From contig NZ_FOMR01000003.1 in NCBI RefSeq assembly GCF_900112705.1, forward strand, positions 248,001 through 312,000: a stretch of 64,000 nt of DNA, given 5' to 3'. The notes below the pieces were generated by a model, which saw nothing but the letters and a program-made list of their open reading frames with translations, did not search any database and was not told the DNA's origin. This stretch comes from Lentibacillus persicus. GTDB taxonomy: Bacteria; Bacillota; Bacilli; Bacillales; Amphibacillaceae. Position numbers and translations under genes: made by a program. Shown here one piece after another: positions 48,492 to 59,161 of the stretch. Numbering within the stretch: the stretch's first letter is position 1; each line of letters starts with the position of its first letter.

Positions 48492-49088
48492 ATGTATTAT
48501 CCGGAACCGATTTCCAAATTGATTGACAGTTTTACAAAATTGCCAGGAATCGGTCCTAAGACGGCAGTCCGACTGGCATTCTATGTTTTAAATATGAATG
48601 ACGACGACGTTATGGAGTTTGCCAAGTCACTGGTAAACGCAAAGCGTGAATTGACACACTGTTCAACATGCGGTCATATCACCGACCAGGATCCGTGTGC
48701 GATTTGTCAGGATACTTCAAGGGACAGTTCAATTATCTGTGTGGTACAGGACCCAAAAGACGTTATCGCTATGGAGAAAATGAAAGAATACAATGGGAAA
48801 TATCACGTCCTGCATGGTGCCATTTCTCCTATGGATGGGATAGGCCCAGAGGATATCAATGTGCCTGATTTAATAAACCGTTTAAAAGATGAAGGTGTCG
48901 AAGAACTCATTTTGGCTACAAACCCTAATATTGAAGGCGAAGCTACCGCTATGTACATTTCCCGGCTGGTAAAACCATCGGGGATTAAGACAAGCCGGAT
49001 TGCACATGGTTTGCCGGTTGGCGGCGATTTAGAATATGCAGATGAAGTAACCCTCTCAAAAGCCCTGGAAGGCAGAAGAGATCTTTAA
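48492..49088 (+). CDS. recR: Recombination protein RecR
   Basis: 198 residues. It has an N-terminal helix-hairpin-helix ([15 protein letters not shown]), a zinc finger [16 protein letters not shown] (about residues 57-72), and a TOPRIM domain ([24 protein letters not shown]). RecR acts with RecF and RecO at gaps. Length equals the B. subtilis protein (198). ATG at 48492 follows GGGAGGCA. The stop codon overlaps the first base of a structured repeat (49086). Confidence 0.98.
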
Positions 49089-49232
49089 AGTGAATCTTCA
49101 ATCAGTGGGGGTTTTTCCCACTGATTGTTAGATGAACGAATCGGACATTTACTGGCAGTTGATCCCCCACCTAATCTTCATCGTATACGCTAACATTTGA
49201 GGTGGGGATCTTACTGCCAGTTACATGCGGGA
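49086..49232 (+). repeat. Two-hairpin structured repeat, copy S1
   Basis: It starts TAAAGTGAATCTTC at the recR stop. Hairpin 1 is CAATCAGTGGG/CCCACTGATTG. The linker GATGAACGAATCGGACATTTA leads to hairpin 2 with outer stem TGGCAGT/ACTGCCA and inner stem ATCCCCACC-type/GGTGGGGAT, and the unit closes with TTACATGCGGGA. The inner stem sequence is entirely different from that of the other copies yet still pairs. It is directly followed by S2. Confidence 0.85.
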
Positions 49233-49414
49233 TAAAGTGAATCTTCAATCAGTGGGAGTTTTTCCCACTGATTGAAGGGGAACAAAGGCTAAGTTCGCAA
49301 CGTCCTGTTGCAACGCCTTTGTGACCTGCATCGTGCAGGCCCGAACGAATCGGACATTTATGGACAGTTAGCCGCCGTTCTTTGGCGGGTTACTGCCCAT
49401 TACATGCGGGATAA
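49233..49414 (+). repeat. Two-hairpin structured repeat, copy S2 (with insert)
   Basis: A second tandem unit with the same TAAAGTGAATCTTC start, CAATCAGTGGG/CCCACTGATTG hairpin and terminal TTACATGCGGGA. About 70 nt are inserted after hairpin 1, holding an AACAAAGGC/GCCTTTGT stem and a CCTGCATCGTGCAGG hairpin. S1 and S2 together occupy the 344-nt gap between recR and yaaL. Confidence 0.85.
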
Positions 49415-49432
49415 AAAGAGATAGGAGAAAAT

Positions 49433-49651
49433 ATGGGGAAAAAAAAGAGAAAGCGGGAAGTGGACAAGCAGCTATTAGATTCACTTTTCGCCATCGAATA
49501 TGAATGGAAGCAAATTCAATCAATTTTGAATAAAAGCATCGAATCGACAGAAGATGGGTTTTATAAAGAGAATCTTGCTCGAGCTAAGTACTTGTATTTA
49601 CTCAAGGAAGCCAAACATCGAAAAATCAGGGCCACGCGGTTTTATCAATAG
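49433..49651 (+). CDS. yaaL: DUF2508 family protein YaaL
   Basis: 72 residues, strongly basic and predicted helical, with the family features EYEWKQIQSILNKSIE and ARAKYLYLLKEAKHRKI. It matches B. subtilis YaaL (74 residues) in position between recR and bofA. Function is unknown. ATG at 49433 follows ATAGGAGA. Repeat S2 ends 18 nt before the start. Confidence 0.9.
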   Translation: MGKKKRKREVDKQLLDSLFAIEYEWKQIQSILNKSIESTEDGFYKENLARAKYLYLLKEAKHRKIRATRFYQ

Positions 49652-49723
49652 ATCTTAGTTCTTTTTCCGTTTTCCTTTTCATAAATAAATAGAAAGGGAC
49701 AAGGGAAAGGAGTGCTATGTTCG

Positions 49724-49987
49724 TTGAGTTCAACACTGGTTATTTCGATTATGGTCGTGTTAATCGTCATTCTATTATTTGTAGGGGCTCCTGTTAAACC
49801 AATGCGGTTTATTGCCAATAGTACCGTTAAATTGGGAATCGGAATCTTACTTTTATTTTTTCTGAACGTGTTTGGGGGAGCCGTCGGTCTGCATATACCA
49901 ATCAACCTGTTCACAGTAATTGTATCCGGTTTTTTAGGTATATTTGGCTTGGGCTCGCTTGCTGCTATTCATTTATTTATTCTGTAG
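49724..49987 (+). CDS. bofA: Pro-sigma-K processing inhibitor BofA
   Basis: An 87-residue protein with two hydrophobic spans (about 5-22 and 37-55) and the hallmark C-terminal part NVFGGAVGLHIPINLFTVIVSGFLGIFGLGSLAAIHLFIL. BofA sits in the outer forespore membrane and holds the SpoIVFB protease inactive until the engulfment signal. TTG at 49724 is preferred since AAAGGAGTG lies 9 nt before it and the length equals B. subtilis BofA (87); GTG at 49712 overlaps that site. It lies downstream of yaaL. Confidence 0.94.
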   Translation: MSSTLVISIMVVLIVILLFVGAPVKPMRFIANSTVKLGIGILLLFFLNVFGGAVGLHIPINLFTVIVSGFLGIFGLGSLAAIHLFIL

Positions 49988-50103
49988 TTGAAAAATCGTT
50001 CCAGGCCCCATCTTTTTAAAAGTGTAAAGAGATAAGCTATTGAAGCATATACTTTTATTGAGAAGCGGTTATAAAAAAGTTTAAAAGATAACCAGTTTTG
50101 CGT

Positions 50104-50133
50104 GTATAAATTTCGTTAGATTAGGAGATACTA
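50104..50133 (+). promoter_or_regulatory. Candidate sigma-F/sigma-G promoter of csfB
   Basis: GTATA, a 15-nt spacer and GGAGATACTA, which matches the sigma-F -10 pattern GGNNANANTR; the spacer is one short of the usual 16. It ends 19 nt before the gene. Forespore expression of csfB is known in B. subtilis. Confidence 0.55.
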
Positions 50134-50152
50134 AGCTAACGGAGGTGGGGAC

Positions 50153-50344
50153 ATGGAACAAAAAATAATGATGGAACGTTGCGGAATTTGTGAGGAAGAA
50201 AAAGAACGCGGAATCCATTTATACAAACTATTTATTTGCTGTGAATGTGAAAAAAATATGATTCACACTGAGCCGCGGGAAGAAAAATACCGTTATTATT
50301 TGCAAAAATTAAAGAATATGAATCAGCCAACACTATATTCCTAG
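50153..50344 (+). CDS. csfB: Anti-sigma-G factor Gin (CsfB)
   Basis: A 63-residue zinc-binding protein with CGIC (residues 10-13) and CCEC (29-32) as metal-ligand pairs, the conserved GIHLYKLFIC segment and the C-terminal YYLQKLKNMNQPTLYS. Gin binds sigma-G (and sigma-E) to prevent premature or misplaced activity. ATG at 50153 follows GGAGGTGGG. In B. subtilis an rRNA operon separates bofA from csfB; here there are only 165 nt. Confidence 0.93.
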   Translation: MEQKIMMERCGICEEEKERGIHLYKLFICCECEKNMIHTEPREEKYRYYLQKLKNMNQPTLYS

Positions 50345-50351
50345 TCATTCA

Positions 50352-50387
50352 GAGTCCGCTGTGTAAAAGTTTGCAGCGGTCTTTTTT
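50352..50387 (+). terminator. Terminator of csfB
   Basis: AGTCCGCTG pairs with CAGCGGTCT and ends in a T-run. Confidence 0.85.
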
Positions 50388-50435
50388 AATGCATTAACAT
50401 ACAAGTAGATTAACCGTAAAGAGGGTGGGAAAGGT

Positions 50436-51854
50436 ATGAGCCGGAATCAGAAAAACACACCTTTATATACCATGTTAGAAAATTTTACAGCCAGCCGCCC
50501 TGTTTCATTCCATGTTCCTGGGCATAAAAACGGGAACATAATTCCGTCTCAGGGAAAGGAAGCATTCAAATCTCTTCTACAGTTGGATTTGACAGAACTA
50601 TCCGGTCTGGATGATTTGCATGCACCCCATGGCGTCATCAAAGACGCACAGGAGCTGACTGCCGAGCTGTTTGAAGCGGACGCCAGTTACTTTTTAATTG
50701 GCGGCAGCACCAGTGGTAATTTGGCAATGATCTTATCGGTTTGTTCACCAGGAGATGAGATGATTGTCCAGCGAAATAGTCATAAGTCAATTTTTAACGG
50801 ACTGGAATTGGCTGGCGCAAAGCCTGTCTTTGTTGCCCCTGAATTCGATGAGGCTGTTCATCGTTATACAGCCCCCGGTAAGGACTCGATTAAACGGGCG
50901 TTGGACAGGCATCCGAGGGCTAAAGGTGTGGTCCTCACCTATCCGGATTATTTTGGGAGAACTTACGGATTAAACGAAATGATTCAACTCATTCATGAAT
51001 ATAATATACCAGTGCTGGTGGATGAAGCGCATGGCATCCATTTTTTCTTGGACGATTCTTTCCCGGAAGCAGCACTTGCGATGGGGGCGGATGCGGTAGT
51101 ACAATCAGCACACAAAATGGCACCGGCCATGACGATGGGGGCATTTTTGCATACACAATCAGAACGCATGTCAAGCAGCCGGATTGCGCGTTATCTTCAG
51201 ATGGTGCAGTCAAGCAGTCCATCATATCCGATTATGGCTTCCTTGGATTTGGCACGTTCGTTTCTGGCACACTTGACCTCTACCGATTTGCGACGCATAC
51301 TGAATAGCGCTGAAGAAGTTCGTGACATACTGAAAAAAGGTGACTTGTGGCATATCGTGCCGGGGGATGATCCACTTAAAATAACACTTCAGGCAAAATT
51401 GGGCGTTCCGGCTGAGACAATAGCCGGATTGTTTGAACAGGAAGGTATTTACCCGGAGCTTGCAACGCATAATCAGCTATTGCTGGTGCATGGCCTGGCC
51501 CCTTTTAATCAAATGAAACGACTGGAAAAAGCAGTCGGCCGCATCAATGCACAATTAAAAAATATCCCGAATCATGATATAATAGATACAAACAATCTTT
51601 TTAAAGAACGTATCACTGAACTTGAATTGGATTATTTTACGATGAATCAGCGCAATTCGATCCAGGTTCCTTTAAGAAAAGCGGAAAACTGTATAGCAGC
51701 AGAAGCTGTCATACCTTATCCGCCCGGCATACCATTCGTGTTGAAGGGTGAGCAGATTACCCGCAATCATATTGAAATCATTGAACAGTTCATGCAGCAG
51801 GGTGTAACAATCCAGCATAGAGATATAGAAGAAGGAATAAGCGTTTTTTGTTAA
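50436..51854 (+). CDS. yaaO: Orn/Lys/Arg decarboxylase family protein YaaO
   Basis: A 472-residue fold-type I PLP enzyme with the substrate domain start FHVPGHKNG, the cofactor region GGSTSGNLAMILS, DEAHG (VLVDEAHGIHFF) and the Schiff-base lysine in VQSAHKMAPAMTMGAFLH (about residue 227). It belongs to the short Gram-positive decarboxylases (SpeA-like); the amino acid used cannot be fixed from sequence. ATG at 50436 follows GAGGGTGGG. The xpaC and yaaN genes that precede yaaO in B. subtilis are absent. Confidence 0.93.
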   Translation: MSRNQKNTPLYTMLENFTASRPVSFHVPGHKNGNIIPSQGKEAFKSLLQLDLTELSGLDDLHAPHGVIKDAQELTAELFEADASYFLIGGSTSGNLAMILSVCSPGDEMIVQRNSHKSIFNGLELAGAKPVFVAPEFDEAVHRYTAPGKDSIKRALDRHPRAKGVVLTYPDYFGRTYGLNEMIQLIHEYNIPVLVDEAHGIHFFLDDSFPEAALAMGADAVVQSAHKMAPAMTMGAFLHTQSERMSSSRIARYLQMVQSSSPSYPIMASLDLARSFLAHLTSTDLRRILNSAEEVRDILKKGDLWHIVPGDDPLKITLQAKLGVPAETIAGLFEQEGIYPELATHNQLLLVHGLAPFNQMKRLEKAVGRINAQLKNIPNHDIIDTNNLFKERITELELDYFTMNQRNSIQVPLRKAENCIAAEAVIPYPPGIPFVLKGEQITRNHIEIIEQFMQQGVTIQHRDIEEGISVFC

Positions 51855-51867
51855 AGGAGTAAGCGCC

Positions 51868-52844
<977 letters not shown>

Positions 52845-52917
52845 AAGCTGTTAAAAAGCAGCAGCCGGGTTAACGCTGCTTGGCACAGTATCAGCAGAAG
52901 GAAGGGGGACTGGCCTG

Positions 52918-53358
52918 ATGAAGATTAATCCGAAATTACAATCACAGATTGATACAACAAATAAAGCGCAGCGTGCTCCTGCAGAGAGCCGCTCACCATT
53001 TAAAGAAATGGTCCAGTCCCAGACACTTCAATTAAAGCAGCAGGAAATCCGTCAACTGATGAAGAATATTGCGATACAAGGGGATAAGCTTGCGCGTTAC
53101 CGGTCTGCCCGGGATTTAATTAAATTTAAGCGAATGATAAAGCATTTTTTGCAGGAAACCGTACCGAATGGATTCGCATTGCAAAAATCTCATAATTATA
53201 GAATGGACGGGGGAAGTCAAAAGTTGACCATCCTCAGACAAGTGGATGATAAACTTGCTGAGTTAACGGAAGAGATCATGAACGAAGAAAGAAAAACCGT
53301 GGATTTATTAGGCCTTATCGGGGAAATCAAAGGTCTTTTAGTTAATTTATATACATAG
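52918..53358 (+). CDS. yaaR: YaaR family protein (DUF327)
   Basis: 146 residues, mostly helical and basic, with the conserved region RYRSARDLIKFKRMIKHFLQETV and LRQVDDKLAELTEEIMNEERKTVDLLGLIGEIKGLLVNLY. Length equals B. subtilis YaaR (146). Function is unknown. ATG at 52918 follows GAAGGGGGA. It precedes holB, so it may be tied to DNA replication only by operon membership. Confidence 0.93.
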   Translation: MKINPKLQSQIDTTNKAQRAPAESRSPFKEMVQSQTLQLKQQEIRQLMKNIAIQGDKLARYRSARDLIKFKRMIKHFLQETVPNGFALQKSHNYRMDGGSQKLTILRQVDDKLAELTEEIMNEERKTVDLLGLIGEIKGLLVNLYT

Positions 53359-53375
53359 TCAAAAGAGGGAAACGA

Positions 53376-54365
53376 ATGAAAACATGGTCTGAAACAGCGG
53401 AAGTCCAGCCATTGGCAAGCAGAATCATTACGAACAGTATTCAAAAAGACCGGCTTTCCCATGCATACTTGCTCCAGGGCGAGCGTGGAACAGGAAAAGA
53501 AGCTGTTGCTTTATTATTGGCAAAGTCTCTTTTTTGCACGAAAAGATCCGGGGTGGAGCCTTGTCAGGAATGCCGTGATTGCAATCGGATTGAGTCGGGC
53601 AACCATCCTGACATGCATTGGATTGAGCCCGATGGCCAATCGATTCGAAAAGAGCAGATTGAATATCTGCAAAAAGAATTCAGCTACTCAGGTCTGGAGT
53701 CCGATCAGAAAGTGTATGTCATTAAAAGTGCAGAAACGATGACTGCCAACGCCTCAAACCGTCTGTTAAAGTTTTTGGAGGAACCTTCCAAAAAAGCAAC
53801 CGCCATCTTGATGACTGAAAACAGCTCCTCTATTCTCCCGACAATTCGTTCGCGTTGTCAGATGATTGATTTTAAGCCTCTTAACCCGCAAGCATTTCAG
53901 CAGCAATTGGTTGAGCATGATGTGTCTCGTTCAAATGCTGTCTTAATAAGTGCCTTAACCAATAACCTGGATGAAGCAATCGCCTGGAGTACTGATGATT
54001 GGTTTGCGCAAGCGCGAAAATTAATGGTACAATTAATAGAAACGTTTTCGTCAAATCAAAACGACGTTTTTTTATTTATACATCAGAAATGGCTGCCGCA
54101 TTTCAAAGAACGAACACAGCAGGAACAAGGGTTGGATTTACTGCTGCTCGGCTTTAAAGATATACTTTTTTATCATTTAGGCAAGACGAAAGATTTGGTC
54201 GTTTTTGAGCAAAATGATACAAGGATTGAAAACCTGGTGATGTTCTTCTCACAGGAAAAATTACTGGACAACTTAAATAAGCTGCTTGATGCCAAACGAA
54301 AACTCAAGCAAAATGTTAACCCGACACTTGTGATGGAGGAACTCATCATTCAAATACAGGGGTGA
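53376..54365 (+). CDS. holB: DNA polymerase III delta' subunit
   Basis: A 329-residue clamp-loader subunit. The degenerate P-loop region is QGERGTGKEAVALLLA (about residues 29-44), the zinc cysteines are in CQECRDC, and the SRC arginine region is IRSRCQMIDF. ATG at 53376 follows GAGGGAAACG. Together with the DnaX product from 46352 it makes two of the three clamp-loader proteins in this window. Confidence 0.96.
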   Translation: MKTWSETAEVQPLASRIITNSIQKDRLSHAYLLQGERGTGKEAVALLLAKSLFCTKRSGVEPCQECRDCNRIESGNHPDMHWIEPDGQSIRKEQIEYLQKEFSYSGLESDQKVYVIKSAETMTANASNRLLKFLEEPSKKATAILMTENSSSILPTIRSRCQMIDFKPLNPQAFQQQLVEHDVSRSNAVLISALTNNLDEAIAWSTDDWFAQARKLMVQLIETFSSNQNDVFLFIHQKWLPHFKERTQQEQGLDLLLLGFKDILFYHLGKTKDLVVFEQNDTRIENLVMFFSQEKLLDNLNKLLDAKRKLKQNVNPTLVMEELIIQIQG

Positions 54366-54369
54366 GAAA

Positions 54370-55197
54370 ATGGTAGAAGTAGTAGGAATCCGTTTTAAAA
54401 AGGCGGGTAAAATATATTATTTTGATCCAGGCAATAATAATATCGCACGCGATGATTATGTTGTTGTGGAAACAGTACGCGGCGTTGAGTTCGGCAAGGC
54501 TGTCATTACAGAGCGACAGGTGGATGAGGAAGATGTTGTGCTTCCGCTTAAAAAAGTCATTCGTGTGGCAAACGAACAAGACAAACGCACAGTTGTTGAA
54601 AATCACGATCTTGCTGAGAAGGCTTTGGCAGCGGGTACCGAGAAAATACACGAACACCAGCTGGATATGAATCTGGTCGAAGTTGAATATACATTTGATC
54701 GCAATAAAATCATCTTTTACTTCACAGCAGAAGGCCGAGTGGACTTTCGCAACCTGGTCAAAGATCTTGCTGCAGCATTTAAAACCCGGATTGAACTGAG
54801 ACAAATTGGTGTGCGCGATGAAGCCAAAATACTGGGCGGAATTGGACCATGCGGCAGAATGCTTTGCTGTTCAACATTCCTGGGTGACTTTGAGCCCGTT
54901 TCAATAAAAATGGCAAAAGACCAGAATTTATCATTGAACCCCGCGAAAATCTCCGGATTGTGCGGCCGTCTTATGTGTTGCCTGAAATACGAAAATGATG
55001 ATTATGAAACAGCTAAACGCGAACTGCCGGATATTGGTGAAAAGGTTAAAACGCCATATGGTGAAGGTAAAGTATCGGGTTTAAACATTTTGGAGCGGGT
55101 GATTCATATTCAACTCCCTGAAAATGAACGGGAGATTGAATATACATTGGATGAAATGATTGATAAGGGGATTATCACTGCACAAGCCACAGAATAG
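54370..55197 (+). CDS. ricT: RicT (YaaT), PSP1-family regulator
   Basis: 275 residues. The PSP1 domain contains the cysteine clusters GPCGRMLCCSTFLGDF and GLCGRLMCCLKYE (about residues 159-216), which ligate Fe-S in the RicAFT complex. In B. subtilis this complex promotes mRNA maturation with RNase Y and stimulates the Spo0A phosphorelay, so it links this operon to sporulation and biofilm decisions. ATG at 54370 lies 4 nt after the holB stop and follows GGGGTGAG. All cysteines are retained. Confidence 0.96.
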   Translation: MVEVVGIRFKKAGKIYYFDPGNNNIARDDYVVVETVRGVEFGKAVITERQVDEEDVVLPLKKVIRVANEQDKRTVVENHDLAEKALAAGTEKIHEHQLDMNLVEVEYTFDRNKIIFYFTAEGRVDFRNLVKDLAAAFKTRIELRQIGVRDEAKILGGIGPCGRMLCCSTFLGDFEPVSIKMAKDQNLSLNPAKISGLCGRLMCCLKYENDDYETAKRELPDIGEKVKTPYGEGKVSGLNILERVIHIQLPENEREIEYTLDEMIDKGIITAQATE

Positions 55198-55211
55198 TGG
55201 GGTGAACAAGC

Positions 55212-55556
55212 GTGTCAAAACGAGAGATTTTCGACCAGGTTTCGGATATGGAAAGCCAAATTGGTGAACTGTACGAACAACTTGGCGATTTGAAAGGTAA
55301 ATTAAGCAGTCTTTTAGAGGAAAAGCATCGCCTGGAAATGGAAAACCACCATTTGCGCAGCCGTTTGGAGCAGGCAGATGACGATTTTAAAGAAAATAGA
55401 GCAGTAAATGCAACCAGCAATATACCCGGTGAAGGTTATGATAACTTGGCTCGGCTATATGAAGAAGGATTTCATATTTGCAATATCCATTTTGGCACGC
55501 CAAGACAGGAAGAAGATTGTTTGTTTTGTCTGGAATTTCTTAACAAAACGAAATAA
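55212..55556 (+). CDS. yabA: Replication initiation control protein YabA
   Basis: A 114-residue negative regulator of initiation. The N-terminal coiled coil (about 1-60) forms the tetramer, and the C-terminal zinc domain has [17 protein letters not shown]. It binds DnaA and DnaN to prevent re-initiation, so its partners are encoded at 11.9 and 13.5 kb here. GTG at 55212 follows GGGGTGA. A MITE-like repeat starts 11 nt after the stop. Confidence 0.96.
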
Positions 55557-55566
55557 TGTAAACAAT

Positions 55567-55746
55567 AGAGACTGGGATACAACCTATATATCAACGTTAA
55601 TGACGAACTATAAGTAGGGTTAGCGCTTCGGAGGCTCACCAGCCGCCCGCGGAAAGCGTAGCATCTTTCCGCAGCGGCGTCCCCCGCCTTCCTTACTGAT
55701 TATAGTTCGTCTTTTCTCTAACTATAAAAACTTTTGTCCCAGCCCC
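55567..55746. repeat. MITE-like palindromic repeat, copy f (internally deleted)
   Basis: 180 bp between yabA and yabB. The ends are GAGACTGGGATACAA and CTTTTGTCCCAGCC. Inner arms are GACGAACTATAAGTAGGG and ACTGATTATAGTTCGTC. The core retains GCCGCCCGCGGAAAGCG and TCTTTCCGCAGCGGCG but lacks most of its left arm. It is in the same orientation as copy d. Confidence 0.85.
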
Positions 55747-55778
55747 TTTAATTTAATCAGATAGGATGGAAGACGGAC

Positions 55779-56525
55779 ATGGTAAAGCTTTACGACGATG
55801 AGCGAATTGATTATTTGCTGGCGGAAGACACAATGCATATCATCCAGAGTCCGGGGGTGTTCGCTTTTTCGCTTGATGCCGTTTTACTTGCTCATTTTGC
55901 CTATGTGCCAATCAGAAAAGGGCGCATTCTTGATTTATGTACGGGCAATGGCGTGGTGCCTCTGTTGCTATCGCGCCGGACGAATGCATCGATTACAGGC
56001 GTTGAAATACAGGAAAGGCTTGCTGATATGGCTGCGCGCAGCGTGGAATTGAATGAATTGGCGAATCGCTTAACGATGATTCATGGGGATTTAAAGGAAA
56101 TGAAGGCACACCTTGGGCACAGTTCGTTTGATGTTGTCACATGCAATCCGCCATATTTTCCGACGCCGGCTGCCACAGAACATAACGCAAACAATCATTT
56201 AACAATTGCGCGGCACGAAGTTTATACGACACTTGAAGATGTGGTTAAAGCATGTAAGCTGCATGTAAGGCCGGGCGGGAAAGTTTCCATGGTTCATCGT
56301 CCGGGAAGGCTTGTTGATATCATTACATTATTCCGCCAATATAAGATTGAGCCAAAGCGCCTGCAGTTCGTATATCCTAAACGTGGGCGGGAATCCAATA
56401 TGCTTTTGATTGAAGGCACAAGAGATGGTAATGCTGATTTAACGATTTTGCCGCCGCTTTATATTTACAATGCGGATAATACTTATACGACTGAAGCAGA
56501 GGAGATTATTTATGGAAAACGATGA
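55779..56525 (+). CDS. yabB: tRNA1(Val) (adenine-37-N6)-methyltransferase-like protein YabB
   Basis: A 248-residue class I methyltransferase with motif [17 protein letters not shown] (about residues 49-64) and the N6-adenine motif NPPYF (VTCNPPYFP). It resembles E. coli TrmN6, which methylates A37 of tRNA-Val; the substrate here is inferred. ATG at 55779 follows TAGGATGGAAGA weakly. It overlaps yazA by 14 nt. Confidence 0.93.
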
Positions 56526-56805
56526 ACATGTTGTTTATATTTTAAAATGTGCGGACGATACGCTATATACCGGCTATACAAATGATTTGGAAAACCGTAT
56601 TAAGATGCATGAAGAGGGAAAAGGTGCCAAGTACACACGCGGCCGGGGCCCATTTAAAATTGTCTTCAGAGAAAATTTTTCAACGAAGGAAGAGGCGATG
56701 CGCCGGGAGCATGAGATTAAACAGCTGACACGCAAAGGCAAGGCCCAACTTATCCGGGACAAGTTGAAAGAAGTGATGGACTTTGAAAATTCAAAAGAGC
56801 TTTAG
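56512..56805 (+). CDS. yazA: GIY-YIG nuclease domain protein YazA
   Basis: A 97-residue single-domain UPF0213/GIY-YIG protein. The signature is [36 protein letters not shown], with the catalytic Arg and a Glu in [13 protein letters not shown]. Its substrate is unknown. ATG at 56512 follows AGAGGAG; upstream in-frame codons belong to yabB. It overlaps rsmI by 23 nt. Confidence 0.93.
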
Positions 56806-57667
56806 CGATCAAAAAGCGAGTACAGTTTATGTTGTGCCCACACCCATTGGAAACCTGGAGGACATAACGTTCCGCGCCTTGAGGACATTAAAGGAAGTTT
56901 CTGTTATCGCGGCGGAAGATACACGAAACACAAAAAAATTGCTCAGCCATTTTGAAATTTCAACGCCTCTTATCAGTTACCATGAGCATAATAAAGAAAA
57001 TCGCACCCGACAATTGCTCGAGCGCCTGGGACAGGACGAGTCGATTGCGGTTGTCAGTGACGCGGGCATGCCCGGTGTATCAGATCCCGGCTATGAATTA
57101 GTACAAGGAGCAATCGACTCTGAATACCCGGTCGTGGTTTTGCCCGGAGCCAATGCCGCGTTATGTGCACTTGTAGGCTCTGGTCTCTCCACGGATGAAT
57201 TTTTGTTTTACGGTTTTTTGCCGCGGAAGAAAAAAGATAAAGAAGCTGCATTGGAGCGATTGAAATACAGTCAGGCGACCCTGCTATTTTATGAATCGCC
57301 ATTTAGAGTGAAGGATACGCTGAAAATGCTCAAGAACCATCTTGGCAATCGCCGTATGACAGCAGCGCGGGAGCTGACGAAAAAATTTGAGGAATATGTC
57401 CGCGGTACAGCAGAAGAGCTTACGACCTGGGCAGAATCCACGGATTTAAAAGGCGAGTTTTGTCTGGTCGTAGAAGGCGCCTCCCCGTCTGAGGCGCAGG
57501 AGAATGATTTGTGGTGGAGCAGTCTTTCAATCGTTGATCACGTTGATTATTATATAAACAAAGAAGAACTTTCGAGTAAAGAGGCTGTCAAACGCGTAAC
57601 AGAGGAGCGCCAAATGGCCAAACGCGATGTCTATCAAGCCTACCACATTGATCAGAAAAAACAGTAA
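56783..57667 (+). CDS. rsmI: 16S rRNA (cytidine-1402-2'-O)-methyltransferase RsmI
   Basis: A 294-residue SAM-dependent methyltransferase of the tetrapyrrole methylase fold. Conserved parts are VVPTPIGNLEDITFRALRTLKEV, AAEDTRNTKKLL, SDAGMPGVSDPGYELV and LPGANAALCALVGSG. It modifies C1402 in the ribosomal P site. TTG at 56783 follows AAGTGATGG and gives the expected N terminus. It is the last gene of the operon from tmk. Confidence 0.96.
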   Translation: MKIQKSFSDQKASTVYVVPTPIGNLEDITFRALRTLKEVSVIAAEDTRNTKKLLSHFEISTPLISYHEHNKENRTRQLLERLGQDESIAVVSDAGMPGVSDPGYELVQGAIDSEYPVVVLPGANAALCALVGSGLSTDEFLFYGFLPRKKKDKEAALERLKYSQATLLFYESPFRVKDTLKMLKNHLGNRRMTAARELTKKFEEYVRGTAEELTTWAESTDLKGEFCLVVEGASPSEAQENDLWWSSLSIVDHVDYYINKEELSSKEAVKRVTEERQMAKRDVYQAYHIDQKKQ

Positions 57668-57698
57668 CATGCTTTCAAAAGCAGTTACTTCACAAAAC

Positions 57699-58079
57699 CC
57701 ATAAACTGCGAACTAGTTAGTGCCCCGTCCACCGCTTCGGAAATACACGCCGCTTTCCGCGGGCGGCTGGTGAGCCTCCTCATGCTTCGCATTGCGGGGT
57801 CTCACCTATGCCTTTGCTCCCGCAGGAGTCGGCGTGTATTTCCTTCGCTGACAATTGCTCACTGAAGTTTAATATGTTTTATAATCAGTGATGGAACTTA
57901 CACACTTGTATCAGCAGCTGGGATATGCGAGACTCCTGTGGGACAGCTAACCAAAGCGACCCCGCAGTGAGTGGTTTTTGCCCACAAGGAGGCTCGTGGT
58001 GAGCCCACGGAAAGCGAGTATATTCCAGCTGCGTCGCTAGAGAGGCAAATGAAATTTTCACTGTGTCGCAGTTTCCATC
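57699..58079. repeat. Composite two-module GC-rich repeat, copy 2
   Basis: Module B' at 57731-57852 (arms GGAAATACACGCCG and CGGCGTGTATTTCC) is followed by module A' at 57912-58034 (arms GCAGCTGGGATATGCGAG and ATATTCCAGCTGC). Boundaries are CCATAAACTGCGAACTAG at the left and TGTCGCAGTTTCCAT at the right. Read on the minus strand the order is A-B, the same as copy 1 at 8757-9179, and module A' is nearly identical to module A. No coding signal was found. Confidence 0.8.
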
Positions 58080-58105
58080 AATTATAAAGGTTCAGGGACA
58101 ACCAA

Positions 58106-58147
58106 AAAGACGGCTGACGTTGGAATACCAAAGCGTCAGCCGTCTTT
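58106..58147 (+). terminator. Strong hairpin, probable terminator
   Basis: AAAGACGGCTGACG and CGTCAGCCGTCTTT form a perfect 14-bp stem around a 14-nt loop. It probably terminates rsmI-side transcription or, on the minus strand, abrB. Confidence 0.7.
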
Positions 58148-58167
58148 CGCACTTTCAGTGGTTTTCT

Positions 58168-58347
58168 TCCGCATGTAAAGGACACTAACCCGCCAAACAA
58201 CGGCGGCTAACTGTCCTTAAATGCCCGATTCTGTTCGGGCCTGCACGATGCAGGTCACAAAGGCGTTGCAACAAGATGTTGCGAACTTAGCCTTTGTTCC
58301 TCTTAATCAGCGAAGGAAAGCACTTCACTGATTGAAGATTCACTTTA
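58168..58347 (-). repeat. Two-hairpin structured repeat, copy S3 (with insert)
   Basis: It is in reverse orientation to S1/S2 and carries the same inserted AACAAAGGC/GCCTTTGT and CCTGCACGATGCAGG hairpins as S2. It lies between convergent rsmI and abrB and ends 14 nt before the abrB stop, so it would be in the abrB 3' untranslated region. Confidence 0.85.
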
Positions 58348-58360
58348 TACAACATTCTGG

Positions 58361-58639
58361 TTATTTGTGTAATCGTGATTGCAGTTCTTCAATGAGCTTT
58401 TCTGCTCCATCAGGGCTTAGCGTTATTCTTCCGTCTGCCAATGAGAAATTTTCATCTGATATCTCACCGGTTATTTGACACATCATACTAGGTGTATGTT
58501 TTTTCAATACAACCTTGTCATCATCAATGTAAATCTCCAACTCATCTTTCACGTTGATGTCAAGTGTCCGACGCAGTTCGATTGGAAGAACAACCCGCCC
58601 TAATTCGTCAACCTTTCGCACAATCCCGGTTGATTTCAT
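58361..58639 (-). CDS. abrB: Transition-state regulator AbrB
   Basis: A 92-residue DNA-binding protein. The N-terminal SpoVT/AbrB swapped-hairpin domain MKSTGIVRKVDELGRVVLPIELRRTLDI with Arg and Lys DNA contacts is intact, and the C-terminal half contains the conserved CQITGEISDENFSLADGRITLSPDGAEKLIEEL. AbrB represses stationary-phase genes during growth. ATG at 58639 follows GGGGAG. The promoter region carries two Spo0A boxes, so Spo0A~P is expected to shut the gene off at sporulation onset. Confidence 0.96.
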   Translation of the reverse strand: MKSTGIVRKVDELGRVVLPIELRRTLDINVKDELEIYIDDDKVVLKKHTPSMMCQITGEISDENFSLADGRITLSPDGAEKLIEELQSRLHK

Positions 58640-58690
58640 CTCTTCATTCTCCCCTCTTAGGCTTAGATACGCAACTGCTATAAAAAGTTT

Positions 58691-58707
58691 TTCGCCATGT
58701 TTCGACA
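58691..58707 (-). promoter_or_regulatory. Tandem Spo0A boxes in the abrB leader
   Basis: On the minus strand TGTCGAA, 3 nt and TGGCGAA: the same 10-bp spacing as the B. subtilis abrB 0A boxes (TGTCGAA, 3 nt, TGACGAA). They lie about +8 to +24 from the predicted start site, a position suited to repression. Confidence 0.8.
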
Positions 58708-58721
58708 CTTACTTATGGAAT

Positions 58722-58750
58722 ATAGTACCAACCATCTATAAGCGTGTCAA
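58722..58750 (-). promoter_or_regulatory. Sigma-A promoter of abrB
   Basis: On the minus strand TTGACA, a 17-nt spacer and TACTAT. Confidence 0.8.
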
Positions 58751-58883
58751 CAAATTTATGCAATAAAATAGAAATAAATTCGAAAATTAACTTAACTAAA
58801 CAAATGCTGCATTTTTTGATAAAATAACGTCTGTCAGAAATGTTTTAAATTAATGCCATATAATATGTGAAAAAAGCTTGTGA

Positions 58884-58912
58884 TTGGAAAAGCTGTTAAA
58901 AAGCGCTACAAT
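58884..58912 (+). promoter_or_regulatory. Sigma-A promoter of metS
   Basis: TTGGAA, a 17-nt spacer and TACAAT. The predicted start (about 58919) falls at the first base of repeat S4, so the metS leader is almost entirely S4 plus S5. No T-box is present. Confidence 0.7.
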
Positions 58913-58920
58913 AGAACTCA

Positions 58921-59041
58921 TCCCGCATGTAATGGACAATAACCTGCCAGAAGACGGTGGGCTAACTGTCCCTAAATGTCCGATTCTGTTTATCTAACAA
59001 TCAGTGGGGAAGAACGCCCCACTGATTGAAGATTCACTTTA
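58921..59041 (-). repeat. Two-hairpin structured repeat, copy S4
   Basis: 121 bp, reverse orientation. It carries the GCATGTAATGGACA start, hairpin 2 with outer stem GGACA/TGTCC and a CTGCC/GGTGG inner part, and hairpin 1 CAATCAGTGGGG/CCCCACTGATTG. Hairpin 1 keeps pairing although its tip differs from S5. Confidence 0.85.
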
Positions 59042-59161
59042 TCCCGCATGTAATGGACAGTAACCCGCCAGAAGACGGCGGTAACTGTCCCTAAATGTCC
59101 GATTCTGTTCATCTAACAATCAGTGAAGAAACCCACTTCACTGATTGAAGATTCACTTTAT
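59042..59161 (-). repeat. Two-hairpin structured repeat, copy S5
   Basis: 120 bp directly after S4 in tandem. Hairpin 2 is GGACAGTAACCCGCC with GGCGGTAACTGTCC and hairpin 1 is CAATCAGTGAAG with CTTCACTGATTG. It ends 23 nt before metS, just ahead of the metS ribosome binding site. Confidence 0.87.

Follow-up and report, generated by a model that had tools for sequence, protein, structure and literature searches.

What spreads a short bacterial repeat whose two hairpins change in sequence and keep their pairing, and is it an RNA or a piece of DNA that folds? Five such units, S1 to S5, raise this question in a 64,000-nucleotide stretch of Lentibacillus persicus (contig NZ_FOMR01000003.1, positions 248,001 to 312,000), hereafter the window. 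The original prediction, which was made from the letters alone, took the paired differences as a mark of selection for structure in RNA or single-stranded DNA (ssDNA). The structural constraint is borne out by covariation, and the reading is here narrowed to the ssDNA of a mobile element, with the RNA option disfavoured. In its features the repeat resembles mobile DNA more than a gene for an RNA. We consider it probable, at roughly two chances in three, that S1-S5 are copies of a non-autonomous, gene-less element that was moved as folded ssDNA by the logic of the IS200/IS605 family. This reading is favoured because empty insertion sites, a target motif, a strand bias and a scarcity of wobble pairs were found.

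All five units are present where they had been placed, within 1-2 bases, and they contain the stems and hairpin tips quoted for them. Their positions and parts in the window are as follows.

49086..49232, plus strand: copy S1, 147 bp, long hairpin-2 type, covariance-model score 117 bits.
49090..49137, plus strand: hairpin 1 of S1 with its outer stem (GT..AC, GA/GA internal loop, ATCT/AGAT, inner stem CAATCAGTGGG/CCCACTGATTG).
49152..49220, plus strand: hairpin 2 of S1 (CTGGCAGT/ACTGCCAG, inner CCCCACCT/AGGTGGGG).
49221..49232, plus strand: right end of S1, TTACATGCGGGA, adjoining S2 directly.
49233..49411, plus strand: copy S2, 179 bp, with a Bacillaceae-1 insert, short hairpin-2 type.
49273..49339, plus strand: Bacillaceae-1 RNA module (RF01690) within S2, 76.3 bits.
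49412..49415, plus strand: TAAA right flank of S1+S2, the pre-existing target (TTTA on strand B); the array is missing here in the sister genome G011 and in G007.
58167..58347, minus strand: copy S3, 181 bp, with a Bacillaceae-1 insert, covariance-model score 68.7 bits.
58240..58306, minus strand: Bacillaceae-1 RNA module (RF01690) within S3, 74.1 bits.
58917..58920, minus strand: TGAG right flank of the S5-S4 array (element strand), also found in the empty site of G011.
58921..59041, minus strand: copy S4, 121 bp.
59042..59160, minus strand: copy S5, 119 bp, head-to-tail with S4, covariance-model score 137.6 bits.

The unit can be read on either strand. On strand A, the orientation of the original prediction, it consists of TAAA-GTGAAWCTTCAWTCAG, the tip of hairpin 1, CTGAWTG-TTAGWTGAAC-(A)GAATCGGRCATTTA, hairpin 2 and TTACATGCGGGA. 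On strand B, its complement, the target TTTA is followed by TCCCGCATGTAA, hairpin 2, TAAATGYCCGATTC and, further on, GTTCAWCTAA, hairpin 1 and the terminal AAGWTTCACTTTA. Hairpin 2 is either short (~40 nt) or long (~70 nt), and the space between hairpin 1 and GAATCGG can hold an optional module. In the tandem pairs S1-S2 and S4-S5, already noticed in the original prediction, the units are head-to-tail and abut exactly, with no spacer. Some of the conserved parts are drawn as loops, namely GA opposite GA, T opposite TT and, on strand B, a TAA at the foot of both hairpins. Among 44 diverse copies, each base of the TAA at the 5' foot is present in 44/44 at hairpin 2 and in at least 43/44 at hairpin 1. 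The first bases of S1, TAA (49086-49088), double as the stop codon of recR, which was preserved after insertion because the element itself begins with TAA.

The hairpins are maintained by compensatory change. In 108 copies, with an alignment fitted to the structure model, 95.2% of the pair cells are standard pairs, compared with 83.5% in shuffles, and double changes occur at 25 of the 35 model pairs. Covariation was also assessed with our own R-scape-like test (not R-scape itself), in which a structure-blind MAFFT alignment was scored by a G-test with average product correction against a null of substitutions replayed on the tree. Two sets of copies were used. The first has 99 copies, mostly from two genera, and is the set of 108 minus identical copies and those longer than 165 nt; it gave 2 pairs with E<0.05, both of them stem pairs. 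The second, of 44 diverse copies, joins 28 of the 30 loci of a search of Bacilli (L223 and L251, from L. persicus itself, were omitted) to 16 hand-picked copies. It gave 6 pairs with E<0.05, all of them stem pairs and three in each hairpin; the next three (E 0.46-0.9) are also in stems, among them the pair that closes hairpin 1 on the outside and one in the outer stem of hairpin 2, and non-stem pairs begin at E 1.3. An outer-stem pair of AWCT/AGWT is A-U in 11/22 and U-A in 11/22 copies of an alignment from L. persicus. The claim that the stem differences preserve pairing therefore held, both in the double changes and in a covariation test of the kind that had been proposed as its check, where the significant pairs lie in stems only.

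Precise insertion can be seen by comparison with related genomes. At recR, the L. persicus sequence CTT[TAAAG..S1-S2..GGGA]TAAA corresponds to CTT-TAAA in G011 and G007, which are empty there. At metG, TTTCA[TAAAG..S5-S4..GGGA]TGAGTTC corresponds to an empty TTTCATGAGTTC in G011. Eleven further sites were compared with G011, G007 and G006, and the eight with a G011 match spanning the junction are all empty. In total, 10 of 13 sites could be aligned to G011 and 10/10 are empty, with no visible target duplication; close to the junction, the alignments of L012 and L018 show small gaps. The other three (L043, L042 and L016) have no junction-spanning match in G011, and in G007 the L043 site is occupied by a copy. 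The filled L022 site and its empty counterparts in G011 and G007 all have TCAA as the flank, and the copy still begins with TAAA. The left TAAA is thus kept at L022 and at metG (TGAG) despite a flank that is not TAAA, and therefore it belongs to the element and the target is not duplicated.

In terms of strand B, the element is inserted 3' of TTTA (or TTGA, CTCA), and its own last four bases are TTTA. The right flank is TAAA in 18/27 cases in L. persicus and at 29/43 array ends in Siminovitchia thermophila, of which 6/43 seem to be false ends inside hairpin 2. The base before the left end on strand A is A in 34/46 and 34/34 cases, respectively. On strand B, the +1 base after the target is accordingly T in 34/46 cases and at 34/34 Siminovitchia array starts, and the element itself starts with T there. 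In S. thermophila, about 11 of 38 loci have the left end of the array at one and the same point within a larger repeat, between GGGACACAACTAAATCAGCTGATGAAAAAACGAACAA and TAAATTGTCCTAGTG. An intragenomic empty site was sought there as well; the near-match L188 has no more than the left half of the host repeat in common and was not used.

The orientation of the insertions is biased relative to replication. The strand with positive GC skew is, as a rule, the template of the lagging strand, and orientation was assigned on this basis; the gene strand bias has the same sign as the skew in most stretches. In L. persicus, 35 of the 47 informative arrays have strand B on the lagging-strand template (p 0.0011), three of 50 arrays with |GC skew| <0.02 being omitted, and 28/37 do when gene strand bias is used. 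The expected fraction, taken from intergenic TTTAT motifs, is 0.48. The bias is 4/5 where the flanking genes oppose the fork and 11/17 in convergent or divergent gaps, and Bacillaceae-1 modules outside the element give 7/16 in the same comparison. G011 gave 53/80 (p 0.005) in 56 stretches of 20 kb, of which 40 are mostly around model matches and 16 are survey stretches. The two genomes, which belong to the same genus, together gave 88/127 (p 1.6e-5); a few insertions could be common to both, and the ten tested ones are not. Arrays were counted by their left ends, so that partial copies are included, and neighbours within one stretch are not independent.

The family is large. The L. persicus genome (G000; 3.31 Mb in 23 contigs) has 57 left ends, counted as matches to the 20-nt left end with at most 2 mismatches, and a reversed-pattern control gave 0. 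A covariance model, R1, which was built from 22 L. persicus copies and whose E-values are rough, has 86 matches there at E<=0.01; these include split copies that carry Bacillaceae-1 and at least one opposite-strand echo (C9:2817-2941:-), and the true copy number is somewhat lower. Counting L. persicus, R1 matched 31/60 genomes and 23/49 genera in a search of relatives, and 43/398 genomes and 23/146 genera in a search of Bacilli; both used strict filters, by which weak matches are lost. Under these filters, no match was found in three genomes of the same genus in the search of relatives (G001, G009 and G010). The search of related genomes and of Rfam that had been suggested with the original prediction thus revealed a large family and, for the unit as a whole, no Rfam family. 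An exact 32-nt tandem joint was found in S. thermophila, Lentibacillus halodurans and Virgibacillus proomii (44 stretches).

The element is also found on plasmids. A plasmid of Pseudalkalibacillus hwajinpoensis carries a full-length copy with 82% identity to L225, and weaker relatives are on plasmids of Peribacillus (48 bits), Cytobacillus (32 bits) and Niallia (29 bits). Plasmid pNY3A of Klebsiella grimontii (L389, 1501-1563) has 81% identity to the first 67 bases of the element of L225. This match, on a gammaproteobacterial plasmid and beside a CPBP protease gene, possibly reflects transfer from a Bacillus relative. Carriage by phages was not indicated, as a 24-nt tandem-joint pattern and the left-end pattern were each found 0 times in viral contigs and phage records gave no match. 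The right-end pattern occurred in 6 viral contigs, apparently at one insertion site: IMG/VR contigs L383-L388 carry the same insertion, with hairpin 2 present in two and mostly lost in four.

We propose that a trans-acting HUH (Y1-like) transposase would bind both hairpins on ssDNA exposed at replication forks, with strand B, the complement of the strand of the original prediction, as the acting strand. Both ends would be cut 3' of TTTA, with TAA as a candidate guide, presumably by TAA-TTTA pairing. An ssDNA circle would then be formed and inserted 3' of another TTTA, and insertion beside the TTTA end of a resident copy would give head-to-tail arrays.

The enzyme was sought around Y1 genes and between distant ends. 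Two Y1 genes are present in L. persicus, one in an IS605-type pair (L047) and the other RAYT-like (L048), and neither has the ends of the element. The gene at L048 is flanked by its own palindromes of the GGGGACGCCGATC(C/A)CGTCCCC type (~890-960, 1078-1110 and 2000-2070). In a scan of the first 32 Y1 loci, L132, L133, L145 and L153 each have a single fuzzy end word and no locus has an end pair. R1 matched 1 of 61 Y1 loci, L265, where a separate copy, and no parent, lies ~650 bp from a RAYT-like gene. Matches to the Y1 family PF01797 are present in 21/26 and 17/22 further genomes. An autonomous parent, with left and right ends more than 330 bases apart, was not found in L. persicus, Siminovitchia, L. 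halodurans, V. proomii or other loci, many of which reach only 0.6-2 kb past the end, so that a parent there could escape. The sole wide spacing is 4.6 kb (L081); the other unmatched left ends have no right end in the locus.

Several of these observations weigh against movement as folded ssDNA by such an enzyme. None of the 61 Y1 loci examined, which are not every Y1 match, holds a transposase with these ends. Seven element-bearing genomes have no PF01797 match at E<=0.001: G011 (one contig), S. thermophila, and the drafts G025, G403, G255, G214 and G151. Y1 matches also occur in genomes without an R1 match, e.g. G001, G010, G019 and G033, and Y1 genes do not track the element. The Siminovitchia arrays have no strand bias (23/40, p 0.43); the larger repeat shared at the left flank of ~11/38 loci may blur the signal there. 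The tree-aware null was beaten by only 2 pairs (99 copies) and 6 pairs (44 copies), and in the 99-copy test the non-stem pair 71-126 ranks eighth, with E 0.6. The structure model pairs one base of each TAA. The hairpins of IS608 and ISDra2 are 20-25 nt in the portions of their descriptions drawn on here, whereas both hairpins of the element are longer, with outer stems around the presumed guides. The copies appear to be old and no fresh jump is seen: their median pairwise identity is 0.79 in L. persicus, 0.85 in Siminovitchia and 0.82 in G011, and the best dispersed pairs reach 0.956, 0.986 and 0.975, respectively. With copies so diverged, the enzyme may have been lost.

Other explanations were weighed against this one. 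The best of them, which we regard as unlikely, is that the element moved in double-stranded form, through recombination specific to TTTAT sites, a mechanism that has been put forward in the literature for BCR repeats, with the hairpins acting as cruciforms or protein-binding inverted repeats. It would account for the ATAAA/TTTAT letters that many copies have at junctions, empty sites and tandem joints, and for the failure of Y1 genes to track the copies. The strand bias speaks against it, and so do the TCAA and TGAG sites, where the target letters are on one side only and the element's TAAA is on the other, as strand-specific cutting predicts.

It is quite unlikely that the units are a structured RNA family, a small RNA (sRNA) or a cis-regulatory element, that is spread by duplication and whose transcript folds on strand A. 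Rich covariation, the GA opposite GA internal loop, a conserved linker and the presence of an Rfam sRNA-type family (RF01690) in 2/5 window copies are all compatible with this, and strand A has more G-T than A-C cells (94:50 in 108 copies, 28:13 in 44 copies). However, the ratio is 19:19 in L. persicus and this strand test is weak overall, wobbles make up only 28 of 1187 stem cells in the 44 diverse copies, and the precise insertions with empty sites, the conserved ends with a target motif and the copies in both orientations speak against it.

Very unlikely, in our view, is a passive repeat whose compensatory changes are owed not to selection but to template switching during replication, which corrects palindromes. 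Adjacent positions do often change jointly, as in the hairpin-2 stems CTGGCAGT, GGGACAGT and GGTGCCGT, and mismatches are rare, but the internal loops that correction would erase (T/TT, GA/GA and the TAA feet) rank among the most conserved parts, at 41-44/44 per base. An integron attC-like reading was rejected by reasoning, since the insertions lie at TTTA instead of a G|TT core.

The insert of ~70 nt common to S2 and S3, which the original prediction had described, is the Rfam Bacillaceae-1 RNA (RF01690), an independent passenger module located between the hairpins. The earlier statement that no named RNA family was recognised thus stands for the two-hairpin unit, which has no Rfam match at gathering level, and fails for the insert, which alone reaches the gathering score. 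RF01690 coincides with the optional insert, excludes the unit itself, and is also located in other repeats and in genomes free of the unit. It has 55 matches in L. persicus, and 29 of the 40 genomes searched, L. persicus included, have matches. It could be described as a promiscuous module, as it lies inside several distinct repeats (L157, L163, L169 and L172, besides S2 and S3 of the window) and is abundant in G009, G010 and G044, which have no two-hairpin match. In L010, L024 and L035 the modules have a further insert of ~60 nt (TCGAAAAAGAAAA...) and are thus nested. By eye only, ~57915-58040 of the window resembles a repeat with GAGACTCCTG.. and GGAAAGCGA.. in which Bacillaceae-1 is found at other places. 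An Rfam small-RNA family is thereby seen to be often a module inside repeats.

Among known systems, IS200/IS605 elements such as IS608 and ISDra2 share with this element a subterminal hairpin at each end, both on one strand. The portions of PMC5934647 and PMC6006769 drawn on here describe, for IS608, a target that stays on the left side, guide sequences at the feet of the hairpins and a preference at +1 for the first base of the element and, for IS608 and ISDra2, action on the lagging-strand template (PMC6006769). To that extent, the likeness includes a short target kept at the left flank and resembled by the last bases, insertion without target duplication, the same +1 preference, a short motif at the 5' hairpin foot and a lagging-strand bias (in L. 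persicus and G011, not in Siminovitchia). Differences are that no tnpA with these ends was found in the 61 Y1 loci, that the element has no coding capacity and that seven element-bearing genomes have no Y1 match. Since no Y1 gene with these ends was found in the 61 loci examined and Y1 genes do not track the element, it is not filed as a member of IS200/IS605, though it appears to work like one. REP/BIME repeats with TnpA-REP (RAYT) likewise lie between genes, as palindromes whose 5' foot carries a short motif. However, the foot of the element is NTAA and not GTAG, each unit has two different hairpins, and the Y1 loci, including RAYT-like ones, lack the element except for the copy near L265.

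Six sequence words of the element were not found in the literature searched, and no description was recognised from titles and the starts of abstracts. Stem-loop repeat families of Bacillus species, e.g. Bhal-1 (74 nt) and Bant-1 (72 nt), are described in the part of PMC2267715 consulted; compared by description only, they are also intergenic stem-loop repeats of the same bacterial group. The nearest published kind, likened by description only, is bcr1 of the B. cereus group. The excerpts used of PMC6542083 and PMC3446304 present bcr1/BCR repeats as mobile, high-copy repeats with a TTTAT motif that resemble miniature inverted-repeat transposable elements (MITEs), with a recombination-like mechanism proposed. 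In those excerpts bcr1 is restricted to the B. cereus group, whereas the element is in 23 of 146 sampled genera, and a distant blastn search of the element gave no match to a B. cereus-group plasmid. A tentative and rather doubtful extension would be a class of ssDNA elements with two hairpins that is widespread in Bacilli, of which bcr1 would perhaps be a branch and which is moved by an enzyme outside the known Y1/RAYT proteins; such an enzyme is conceivable because some element-bearing genomes have no Y1 match at all. As far as the same excerpts go, the element and bcr1/BCR share their size class, tens of copies per genome, TTTAT boundaries, intergenic location and MITE-like nature. The compact set of rules obtained here (ends, target, strand and candidate guides), for a repeat present in many Bacilli genomes, makes the question of what moves TTTAT-bounded repeats a testable one.

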